Source: Gammaproteobacteria bacterium (GTDB lineage Bacteria; Pseudomonadota; Gammaproteobacteria; Steroidobacterales; Steroidobacteraceae). From it: a stretch of DNA of 57,335 nt. The stretch covers positions 1-57,335 of the forward strand of contig JAGWPE010000241.1 in the NCBI GenBank assembly GCA_028870635.1, given 5' to 3'. Positions within the stretch are counted from its first letter, which is position 1; each line of letters begins with the position of its first letter. The position numbers were made by a program, and so were the translations under genes. A model generated the notes under the pieces. That model was not told the DNA's origin. It saw only the letters and a list, made by a program, of their open reading frames with translations, and did no database searches. This document shows positions 11,476-51,500 of the stretch, piece after piece.

Positions 11476-11617
11476 GATCGTTCGCTGCATAATGTCGAAG
11501 CGACCACATTCCTGGCAGGGGGCGCGACTCCACACCGGGGACGGATGATCGGTGGGAACTGAGGTAACGATTCGCCGAGCAATTCGCTCGCTCAGGAAAC
11601 GCCCTTCATTCTTAATG
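11476..11617. repeat. Degenerate internal Tn7L-like end
   Basis: This stretch aligns with the distal end at 12517-12687. TTCGCTGCATAATGTCGAAG corresponds to TTCGCTACATAATAGCGAAA, GGGAACTGAGGTAACGAT to GGAAACTCGGGTAGCGAC, and CAGGAAACGCCCTTCATTCT to GAGGAAACGACTCTAAATTC. Order and approximate spacing of all three TnsB-like sites are kept. The terminal ACA is missing; the sequence runs straight into the rmuC duplicate. It looks like the distal end of a related, older element. Confidence 0.65.
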
Positions 11618-11722
11618 GTTGCGGACTCGGCGGGATCCAGTTGCTCGACCGACCGCAATTTGCGCTCCATTGCTCGCGTGCGGGTGTCCGTCTACTCGAT
11701 CGCCTTGGTGACCGTCTGTAGT
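11618..11722 (-). repeat. 105-bp duplicate of part of rmuC
   Basis: This segment matches 2226-2330 without gaps; I count five mismatches (about 95% identity). Read on the minus strand it includes the RmuC fragment MERKLRSVEQLDPAESAT. It starts directly at the broken edge of the degenerate transposon end. It is non-coding by itself. Confidence 0.85.
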
Positions 11723-12687: not shown

Positions 12688-12692
12688 ATTGC
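12688..12692. repeat. Target site duplication, distal copy (ATTGC)
   Basis: ATTGC lies between the ACA terminus of the element and the TGT of a second proximal-type end, and matches 131-135. Confidence 0.82.
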
Positions 12693-12737
12693 TGTGCGCC
12701 CGAATCAAAGTCGTTTCCCGAGAATTCGGCATGAGCC
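12693..12737 (+). repeat. Second, older Tn7R-like end abutting the first element
   Basis: Counting the preceding ATTGC, 28 of 30 bases match the glmS-proximal end: TGTGCGCCCGAATC, then AAAGTCGTTTC. A second GAATT core sits exactly 20 bp after the first (12722 versus 12702), but the rest of that site and any further sites have decayed. Its orientation equals that of the first end. This is what repeated TnsD-directed insertion at one att site gives: the newer element sits between glmS and the older one. The far end of the older element was not found. Confidence 0.75.
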
Positions 12738-31404: not shown

Positions 31405-31447
31405 CCTTGGGAGTTTACTCCAGCGCAATCGCGAAGCACGGACCATA

Positions 31448-31550
31448 GGCACAGGGACGTGCCCGCCGCCGTAGGCGGCGAGCGGCGGGCAAAGGCCGCG
31501 CCTTTTGCACGCCGCCGCGCTGGGCCGGGCTGGATGCCCGGATCCAGCGC
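31448..31550 (+). repeat. Interspersed hairpin repeat, copy 1 (short form)
   Basis: It starts GGCACAGGGACGTGCCCG and ends CCCGGATCCAGCGC, like the copies at 36591, 39379 (inverted) and 51352. Its internal palindromes are partly lost. It fills the gap between the end of mdh and the start of fadE. Confidence 0.75.
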
Positions 31551-31551
31551 T

Positions 31552-32529
31552 TCAGAGCAGGGACTTGACCCCTTCCCGCTCCTCCTTCAGCTCCGCCAGC
31601 GTGGCATCCATCCGCTTGCGGCTGAACTCGTCGATCGAGAGCCCCTGGACGATCTGGTATTCCCCATTCTTCGTGGTCACCGGGTAAGAGTAGATCACCC
31701 CTTCCGGGATGCCATAGCTGCCGTCCGAGGGGATAGCCATGCTCACCCAGTCGCCTTCCGCGGTCCCGTGCGCCCAGGTATGGACGTGATCGATGGCGGC
31801 GGACGCGGCCGATGCGGCCGAGGAGGCGCCCCGCGCCTTGATGATGGCGGCGCCGCGCTGCTGCACCACCGGGATGAAGCTCTGCTCCACCCAGGCGGCA
31901 TCGACGAGCGACCGCGCCGGCTTGCCCTTGACGAGGGTGTGGCTGATGTCCGGGTATTGCGTGGCGGAGTGGTTGCCCCACACCGTCATGCGGCGGATGT
32001 CGCTGACGTGAGTGCCCGTCTTCTCGGCAAGCTGGGACAAGGCGCGATTGTGATCCAGGCGCATCATCGCGGTGAAGTTGCGCGGGTTGAGGTCCTTGGC
32101 GTTGGAGCGGGCGATGAGCGCGTTGGTATTGGCGGGATTGCCGACCACCAGCACCTTGACGTTGCGATCGGCGGCCTCGTTGAGCGCCTTGCCTTGGGCG
32201 GAGAAGATCTGCGCGTTGGCGAGCAGCAGGTCCTTGCGCTCCATGCCCGGGCCGCGCGGCCGCGCGCCGACGAGCAGCGCCACGTGGCAATCGCGGAACG
32301 CGACTTTCGCATCGTCGGTGGCCACGATCCCGTTGAGCCGCGGGAAGGCACAGTCGGCCAGCTCCATGACAACGCCGTTCAGCGCCTGCAGCGCCGGGGT
32401 GATCTCGAGCAGATGCAGGTTGACCGGCTGGTCGGGCCCGAGGAGCTGTCCGGAGGCGACACGGAAGGCGAGGGCATAGCCGATCTGGCCGGCGGCGCCG
32501 GTGATCGCGACGTTCAAGGCTGGCTTCAT
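31552..32529 (-). CDS. mdh: Malate dehydrogenase (cytosolic type 2)
   Basis: 325 residues from ATG at 32529. The NAD-binding motif is [11 protein letters not shown], followed by [15 protein letters not shown] (substrate loop Arg residues), [10 protein letters not shown] and the catalytic His region [13 protein letters not shown]. It interconverts malate and oxaloacetate in the TCA cycle. It is followed by a repeat copy and divergent from the mlaE operon. Confidence 0.95.
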
Positions 32530-36180: not shown

Positions 36181-37134
36181 TTGAAATACCGCCACGAGCA
36201 TCACGCCGGCAACTTCGCGGACGTCCACAAGCATGTGACGCTGCTGGCGCTGCTCGCCGCCTTGAAGCGCAAGGAGAAGGGCTTTCTCTACCTCGAGACC
36301 CACGCCGGCCGGGGCGCCTACGATTCGTCGGGGGCGGACGGCGAATCGGCCAGCGGTATCGGGCGGCTCGATGCGCAGCGTCTCTCGGAGGCAGCAGGGC
36401 CGTCCGCCGCCGAAGAGATTCGCCACTATCTGGCACGAGTGCAGCTGCTGCGCCGCGAGCGCCGGCAGCCGCGGCTCTATCCCGGCTCTCCGCTGCTCGC
36501 CGCCAGCGAGTTGCGCCCGCAGGACCGCGCGGTTCTGATCGAGCAGCAGCCCCCCGAGGCGCGCGCGCTCGAGAGGGCGTTGTCCGCTCAGGCGCAGGGA
36601 CGTGCCCGGCCGCCGCGGGTGGCCGGGTCTCGGGCAAAAACCACGCCTTTTGACCGAGACGGCGCTGGGCCGGGCAGGAGCCCGGATCCAGCGCCTCATA
36701 TCACGGTTGAGATCGGTGACGGCTTCGAGCGCCTGCGCGCCTGGCTGCCGCCGCCCGAGCGCCGCGGGTTGACCTTCATGGATCCGCCCTACGAGGAGAG
36801 CCGCCGGGACTTCGAGCGGACCCGGCATGCGGCCGCGGAGGCGCTGCGGCGCTTTCACACCGGCGTGGTGGCGATCTGGTATCCGATCAAGGACGAGCGC
36901 GACACATCGGCCTGGCATGTGGCACTCGCGGGCGAGCTCGATTGCGGCCTGCTCGCGGCGGAGCTGTCACTCTATCCGCGCGATTCCCGGGTGGCGCTCA
37001 ACGGCTCCGGCATGCTCATCCTCAATCCTCCCTACCAGCTCGCCGAGCGGATGGAAACGTGGCTGCCGCAGCTGCACGCCTGCCTCGACTCGGGGCACGG
37101 CGGCCGCACGAGCGTGCGAAATCTGAAGGCCTGA
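36181..37134 (+). CDS. rlmJ: 23S rRNA (adenine-N6) methyltransferase RlmJ with in-frame repeat insertion
   Basis: 317 residues from a TTG start (KYRHEHHAGNFADVHKH), which matches the conserved RlmJ N-terminus. Other features are LYLETHAGRGAYDSS, RLYPGSPLLAASELR, catalytic DPPYE in TFMDPPYEESR and VALNGSGMLILNPPYQL. E. coli RlmJ has ~280 residues. The extra ~35 here (about residues 137-172, GRARPPRVAGSRAKTTPFDR onward) are encoded by a copy of the genomic repeat seen at three other sites. The frame is kept. The insertion falls between two structural elements before the GDGFERL strand, so activity may survive. It starts 2 bp after the lipoprotein stop. Confidence 0.88.
   Translation: MKYRHEHHAGNFADVHKHVTLLALLAALKRKEKGFLYLETHAGRGAYDSSGADGESASGIGRLDAQRLSEAAGPSAAEEIRHYLARVQLLRRERRQPRLYPGSPLLAASELRPQDRAVLIEQQPPEARALERALSAQAQGRARPPRVAGSRAKTTPFDRDGAGPGRSPDPAPHITVEIGDGFERLRAWLPPPERRGLTFMDPPYEESRRDFERTRHAAAEALRRFHTGVVAIWYPIKDERDTSAWHVALAGELDCGLLAAELSLYPRDSRVALNGSGMLILNPPYQLAERMETWLPQLHACLDSGHGGRTSVRNLKA
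36591..36696 (+). repeat. Interspersed hairpin repeat, copy 2, inside rlmJ
   Basis: GGCGCAGGGACGTGCCCGG to CCCGGATCCAGCGCCTCA matches the other copies in order. It includes the GGGCAAAAACCACGCC segment and the terminal GCGCTGGGCCGGGC / GCCCGGATCCAGCGC inverted pair. It has no stop codon in the rlmJ frame. Confidence 0.8.
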
Positions 37135-39359: not shown

Positions 39360-39378
39360 TATCGGATTGTAGTATGAA

Positions 39379-39521
39379 GCGCTGAATCCGGGCTCCTGCC
39401 CGGCCCGGCGCGCCTCGGGCAAAAAGCGTGGTTTTTGCCCGAGGCTCGCTCGGCGGGCGAAGCGGTGCTTCGCTGAAAGGCACCGCCTCGCCCTACGGCG
39501 GCGGGGCACATCCCTGTGCCT
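39379..39521 (-). repeat. Interspersed hairpin repeat, copy 3 (inverted, long form)
   Basis: The reverse complement runs from AAGGCACAGGGATGTGCCCC to GCCCGGATTCAGCGC. It includes GCGAAGCACCGCTTCGC and GGGCAAAAACCACGCTTTTT palindromes shared with copy 4. It fills the gap between the divergent gor and prlC genes. Confidence 0.78.
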
Positions 39522-39573
39522 TGCTTCCAGGTCGCGAGGTGCAATTGCAACCAGCTCGAATGATAGGTGTGTG

Positions 39574-51319: not shown

Positions 51320-51351
51320 CTCCGCTTCACGCTCAGGTCTTTTCTTTCTTC

Positions 51352-51500
51352 AGGCACAGGGAGGTACCCGGCCGCCGCAGGGCGAGGCGGTGTTTTCAGC
51401 GAAGCACTGCTTCGCTCCGCCGAGCGGCGTTGAGCAAAAAACCACGCTTTTTTGCTCAACGCGCCCTGGTCCGCGCAGGATGCGCGGATCCAGCGCCATC
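51352..51500 (+). repeat. Interspersed hairpin repeat, copy 4 (long form)
   Basis: AGGCACAGGGAGGTACCCGG to GCGCGGATCCAGCGCC. It contains three palindromes: GCGAAGCACTGCTTCGC, TTGAGCAAAA / TTTTGCTCAA around CCACGC, and the end pair GCGC ... GCGCGGATCCAGCGC. It separates the convergent topA and LysM genes and could end transcription from both sides. Confidence 0.78.

Follow-up and report, generated by a model that had tools for sequence, protein, structure and literature searches.

Results and Discussion

Here, we describe a mobile hairpin repeat that lies in frame within rlmJ, the gene for a 23S rRNA methyltransferase, in the genome of an uncultured gammaproteobacterium. The explanation we favour, at a probability of roughly 0.87, is that of a single old insertion, which is read through as a disordered, basic loop and persists as a tolerated scar. 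From the comparisons given below we infer that the insert is translated, that RlmJ activity is unchanged, and how the insertion may have taken place. The window, i.e., the whole stretch of DNA analysed, comprises 57,335 nucleotides; its features are collected in Table 1.

Table 1. Position of rlmJ, the inserted repeat and further repeat copies in the window.
Feature	Position	Strand	Remarks
rlmJ (23S rRNA A2030-N6 methyltransferase)	36181..37134	+	TTG start at 36181, stop at 37134; 317 aa; complete intact frame
Inserted repeat copy	36589..36698 (3' end approximate)	+	110 nt; encodes 36 residues, 137-172
Small 5' hairpin of repeat	36591..36606	+	minimum-free-energy fold
Second hairpin of repeat	36607..36625	+	minimum-free-energy fold
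Third hairpin of repeat, TCTCGGGCAAAAACC.../...TTTTGACCGAGA	36627..36660	+	minimum-free-energy fold
Fourth hairpin of repeat, GGCGCTGGGCCGGGC...GCCCGGATCCAGCGCC	36661..36695	+	minimum-free-energy fold
Catalytic motif IV DPPY	36781..36792	+	from translation; 3' of insert, same frame; invariant across 24 RlmJ
Junction segments of insert-bearing RlmJ			ALSAQAQGR and SPDPAPHITVEIGDGFER
Intergenic repeat copy (L020)	31447..31554	+	80% identity; 3' end overlaps stop codon of adjoining minus-strand gene
Longer-variant intergenic copy	39373..39522	-	extra middle hairpin segment; site empty in G032, G065, G080
Longer-variant copy	51350..51500	+	sequence match to repeat

The rlmJ gene and its product

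The ORF that carries the repeat matches the Pfam family RsmJ (PF04378, E=1.5e-50) as two stretches with the insert between them. The best PDB match of its product is E. coli RlmJ (4blu, E=2.6e-44; 7p8q), and RlmJ also ranks first (4blv, E=6.6e-22) in a Foldseek search with the AlphaFold2 model. In the E. coli enzyme, Y4, H6, K18 and D164, the latter within D164PPY167, are critical according to mutagenesis (PMC3814359). Their counterparts here are Y3, H5, K17 and D201-PPY204, all of which are invariant columns among 24 aligned RlmJ sequences. By predicted fold and by these catalytic equivalents, the product is best assigned to RlmJ, with methylation of A2030 as its predicted activity.

The insert makes up residues 137-172 of RlmJ. 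As the sequence-only reading had stated, it is an Arg/Pro/Gly-rich segment without a stop codon that keeps the frame. In the AlphaFold2 model it is placed between a helix (residues 124-141) and a strand (174-178) of an otherwise normal RlmJ fold and is disordered, with a pLDDT of about 40 over residues 150-171; structure prediction for a surface loop had been proposed as a check on the initial observation. Between the helix ending in ALERAL and the VE.GDGF strand, the loop of congeners has about 11 residues versus 41 here. Counted to GDGF, the segment measures 9-20 residues in 79 named relatives (30 in one case) versus 44 here. The predicted disorder, together with a loop of variable length, explains why the insert can be tolerated. 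Judged by the named relatives that RlmJ recovered, the clade lies near Steroidobacteraceae and uncultured Gammaproteobacteria.

A genus-specific family of hairpin repeats

The ends of the element were set by column conservation in 110 copies with flanks. They refine the ~105-bp repeat first read at 36591-36696, and a 121-base query around the insert confirms its repetitive nature with 44 matches in the same genome, a 3.5-Mb assembly of 420 contigs. Sister species are similarly rich in matches, with 57 in G036, 43 in G032 and 46 in G035. The family was found in 18 of 58 congeners (E<=1e-15) and in none of 23 genomes from other families of the order. The hairpin repeat is genus-specific and mobile.

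A consensus built from 136 copies measures 109 nt and folds as one small and three large hairpins; the minimum free energy of the rlmJ copy is -72.3 kcal/mol overall. Rfam gave no match for the repeat, and a tRNA was the sole Rfam match in five other loci. Terminal inverted repeats are absent, as the two termini of the consensus, CAGGCACAGGGA... and ...GGATCCAGCGCTTCA, bear no inverted relationship. The GTAG tag does not occur in the consensus, and CGTC occurs only within a stem, on the complementary strand. A RAYT (PF01797) was sought as mobiliser and is unsupported: in four copy-rich genomes no complete gene was detected, with fragments only in this genome (G000) and G036 and none in G032 and G035. 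The latter two genomes hold dozens of repeat copies, and in neither was a Y1 (RAYT) transposase gene detected.

Two copies in the window belong to a longer variant of about 150 nt, which has an additional hairpin segment, GCGAGGCGGTG..., in its middle. This segment is probably the reason why about a dozen copies from related genomes match the short form over its 3' two thirds only. In G036, the repeat also forms short tandem-like arrays, in which two or three similar copies are spaced by ~115 or ~170 nt (C191:16182-16636, C101:20968-21194, C61:5404-5685).

The intergenic copy L020 adjoins a minus-strand gene that ends at ~31552. At its 3' end the repeat has TTCA, read as TGA on the opposite strand, which provides or adjoins the stop codon of this gene, and in five species with a repeat at this site the gene stops at the repeat. 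In G080, where the site is empty, a native TAA follows one codon later. The 3' end of the repeat likewise supplies or abuts the stop of the adjoining gene at two further loci, L021 and L125.

Two other repetitive features of the window may be recorded. A 109-nt direct repeat (2222-2330 and 11614-11722, 94% identical) is unrelated to the hairpin family. A short tandem motif, GAATTAAAGTCGTTACC, at 131-209 has a related stretch at 12688-12726; both perhaps represent insertion-sequence ends.

Filled and empty alleles

Four genomes carry the filled allele, namely G000, G036, G065 and G080, with matching junctions on both sides and in the same orientation. The close sisters G032 and G035 as well as 20 further congeners with complete rlmJ have the empty allele. 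Most of the genomes used are fragmentary assemblies. The alignment with RlmJ of close relatives, proposed as a check on the initial observation, thus separates carriers from non-carriers, and no genome was found that shares the insert and lacks the repeat family. The G080 copy shows a single 6-nt deletion at the repeat edge. In G035, contigs C76 and C218 (L264, L265) both hold an insert-free rlmJ region and are perhaps overlapping strain variants.

The two kinds of site have diverged too far for a target-site duplication to be delimited. At rlmJ there is a net loss: the filled allele lacks some 20 nt of the original loop. With this loss, RlmJ is 30 residues longer than in the sister species, and not ~35 as first read.

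We propose that the repeat was inserted once, in an ancestor of these species. The target would have been the helix-to-strand surface loop just 5' of the strand leading to the GDGF segment, and ~20 nt of the old loop would have been lost upon insertion. Since most frames of the GC-rich repeat are open and the length changed by a multiple of three in all, RlmJ would have been lengthened by ~30 residues, not broken. The enzyme would retain its fold and catalytic residues, with the repeat translated as a disordered basic loop, and selection would from then on hold only the reading frame and not the inserted residues.

One insertion or several

The nucleotide identity of about 86% in the neighbourhood of rlmJ points to a deep divergence of the species concerned. 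An alignment of 17 kb around the gene yields the tree ((G032,G000),(G036,(G035,(G080,G065)))), on which the carriers as one clade are rejected (AU p=2e-4). This tree is therefore at odds with one clean gain that was followed by no loss, recombination or lineage sorting. With rlmJ alone, the six sister species are left unordered and a carrier clade is not rejected (AU p=0.29). These two results are what would be expected if the carriers had gained the insert separately, by site-specific insertion, or had swapped the allele by recombination instead of inheriting it. We regard this as unlikely. The matching junctions and the common orientation in all four carriers argue for one insertion, and the inner branches of the neighbourhood tree are short (about 0.01 versus 0.1 for the tips), so that one old insertion, with lineage sorting or replacement of the allele, is enough to explain the pattern. 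We infer one old insertion, with the empty alleles of G032 and G035 derived from lineage sorting, recombination (allele replacement) or loss.

A recent transfer or gene conversion of the insert was considered as well, based on its divergence lying below the synonymous divergence of the flanks. It was dismissed, as the orthologous intergenic copies are equally similar (mean identity 88%, compared with 91% between G000 and G036 for the copy in rlmJ).

Selection on frame and residues

The absence of a stop codon, noted in the sequence-only reading, is uninformative on its own, as this frame is also open in 118 of 134 other copies. More generally, in each of five frames out of six, 85-94% of the repeat copies are open. 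The intergenic copies provide a better comparison for the frame. Of the 23 pairs of orthologous intergenic copies, 20 contain a frame-shifting indel, or 16 if the strictest gap cost is applied, and no frame-breaking indel occurs in the rlmJ copy across the four species. This test is suggestive: it covers four lineages and control pairs that are not fully independent, and the chance of an intact frame under neutrality lies, very roughly, between 0.02 and 0.1 and varies with the gap cost.

The constraint on the downstream, catalytic half of the gene is the stronger argument for read-through. The rlmJ frame is open at full length in all four carriers, and omega outside the insert is 0.073 among them, i.e., rlmJ is under strong purifying selection. 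The frame is presumably held because the catalytic DPPY lies downstream of the insert.

Inside the insert, omega is 0.758 in the four carriers; fixing it at 1 costs 0.2 lnL and fixing it at 0.1 costs 11. The inserted residues thus drift almost neutrally: omega is not separable from 1, and values near 0.1 are rejected. Among the varying codons, 13 are amino-acid-changing and 6 silent in the insert, as opposed to 74 and 117 outside (Fisher p=0.015). Judged from these alignments, selection appears to keep the reading frame and not the inserted residues. With the frame held and the residues close to free, the insert is best seen as a tolerated scar.

Could the basic loop have been put to use, e.g., as an additional tail that binds RNA at helix 72 and is kept by protein selection? 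The insert has 7 Arg/Lys versus 3 Asp, rRNA binding was proposed for a surface of RlmJ that is positively charged and poorly conserved (PMC3814359), and the insert persists in four species through a deep divergence. Against this, the omega of 0.76 is not separable from 1, the majority of the varying codons change the amino acid, close species do without the insert, and it is predicted to be disordered. We hold such a use to be improbable. The more specific proposition of a selfish repeat exapted in the catalytic domain, with the loop as a working part of RlmJ for an additional rRNA contact or for regulation, seems to us a shade less probable still.

It is also conceivable that the insert does not end up in one polypeptide, either because translation restarts 3' of it or because it is bypassed or removed. 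The strongly folded mRNA (-72 kcal/mol per 110 nt, predicted) would lend itself to this. A restart, however, would lift the constraint on the frame, which is kept in four species, and intergenic copies shift readily; the insert bears no signature of self-splicing or bypass, given the lack of an Rfam match. We thus consider this very improbable. That rlmJ is dead or unexpressed in the carriers, with the repeat residing in a decaying gene, is hardly credible: the TTG start would fit such a reading, and the low omega outside the insert, the conservation of all catalytic residues and the full-length frame in all four carriers speak against it.

Frequency of in-frame insertions

The survey covered 145 repeat copies from this and related genomes, 131 of which have enough flank to be classified. 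Only four of the 131 are located in one open, coding-like frame, among them the copy in rlmJ of G000 and that of G036. For the other two, no Pfam domain was found on both sides of the repeat when the best spanning frames were checked. Three candidates for a second in-frame insertion, in genes for polyphosphate kinase (L025), nnr (L162) and BrkB (L123), were discarded because the Pfam domain begins only past the repeat; here the repeat may provide N-terminal extensions. Another five (L062, L090, L136, L150, L008) were discarded as no domain was found. The insertion in rlmJ is the only clear intradomain case among about 145 copies, and hence a rare event and not a genome-wide habit.

Known counterparts

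In Rickettsia, the palindromic elements (RPE) are hairpin repeats that occur in frame within protein genes. The rlmJ insertion resembles them in its outcome: a hairpin of ~100-150 nt sits in frame in a conserved enzyme gene and adds 30-50 tolerated residues. The comparison with RPE made in the sequence-only reading holds in this respect and does not hold for habit, as RPE recur across many genes and here we see essentially one intragenic event. The likeness is one of description. Unlike the hosts of RPE, the genomes studied here are of the free-living type, 3-5 Mb in size and high in G+C.

The reading had further described such repeats as rarely reported in free-living proteobacteria. This part holds less well: in-frame intragenic repeats in free-living bacteria are already published (PMC3733652, PMC2759123), and Coxiella provides cases as well (PMC5896051). 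Di Nocera et al. 2013 tabulate REPs inside genes for many free-living bacteria, among them Thauera, Thioalkalivibrio, Xanthomonas, Stenotrophomonas and Opitutus (PMC3733652). As described there, GTAG/CGTC REPs are, like the present repeat, mostly intergenic hairpins of which some lie in frame in genes, and the ends of GTAG REPs often supply the stop codon of a flanking gene. That codon is TAG in the GTAG REPs and TGA in our case. In the same description, the REPs are tagged and 20-40 bp long, whereas our repeat has ~110 nt and several hairpins, lacks GTAG and is accompanied by no complete RAYT.

Delihas 2007 lists 24 enterobacterial loci where the ERIC-like MITEs RU-1, RU-2 and RU-3 are fused to genes (PMC2759123). 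These elements are likewise mobile, 100-170 nt long, open in their frames and found inside annotated genes. In that survey the fusions are C-terminal and none is reported from within a conserved superfamily domain (PMC2759123), whereas the copy studied here lies within the methyltransferase domain. In Coxiella, QMITE1/2 have inserted in frame in proteins (PMC5896051). They are comparable as small, non-autonomous elements that contribute protein residues in a gammaproteobacterium, and differ in sequence, in their intracellular host and in their terminal inverted repeats, of which none are seen here.

Implications

The phenomenon itself is known; what is new is the well-resolved history of one in-frame repeat insertion. 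With filled and empty alleles in sister species, it shows unusually cleanly how a selfish repeat became protein sequence, and the intergenic copies serve as a built-in neutral control. Unlike what the enterobacterial survey found (PMC2759123), a repeat can sit within a conserved catalytic domain. From a functional perspective, the case supports the view that such insertions survive via the openness of GC-rich frames and landing in a loop, and not via usefulness.
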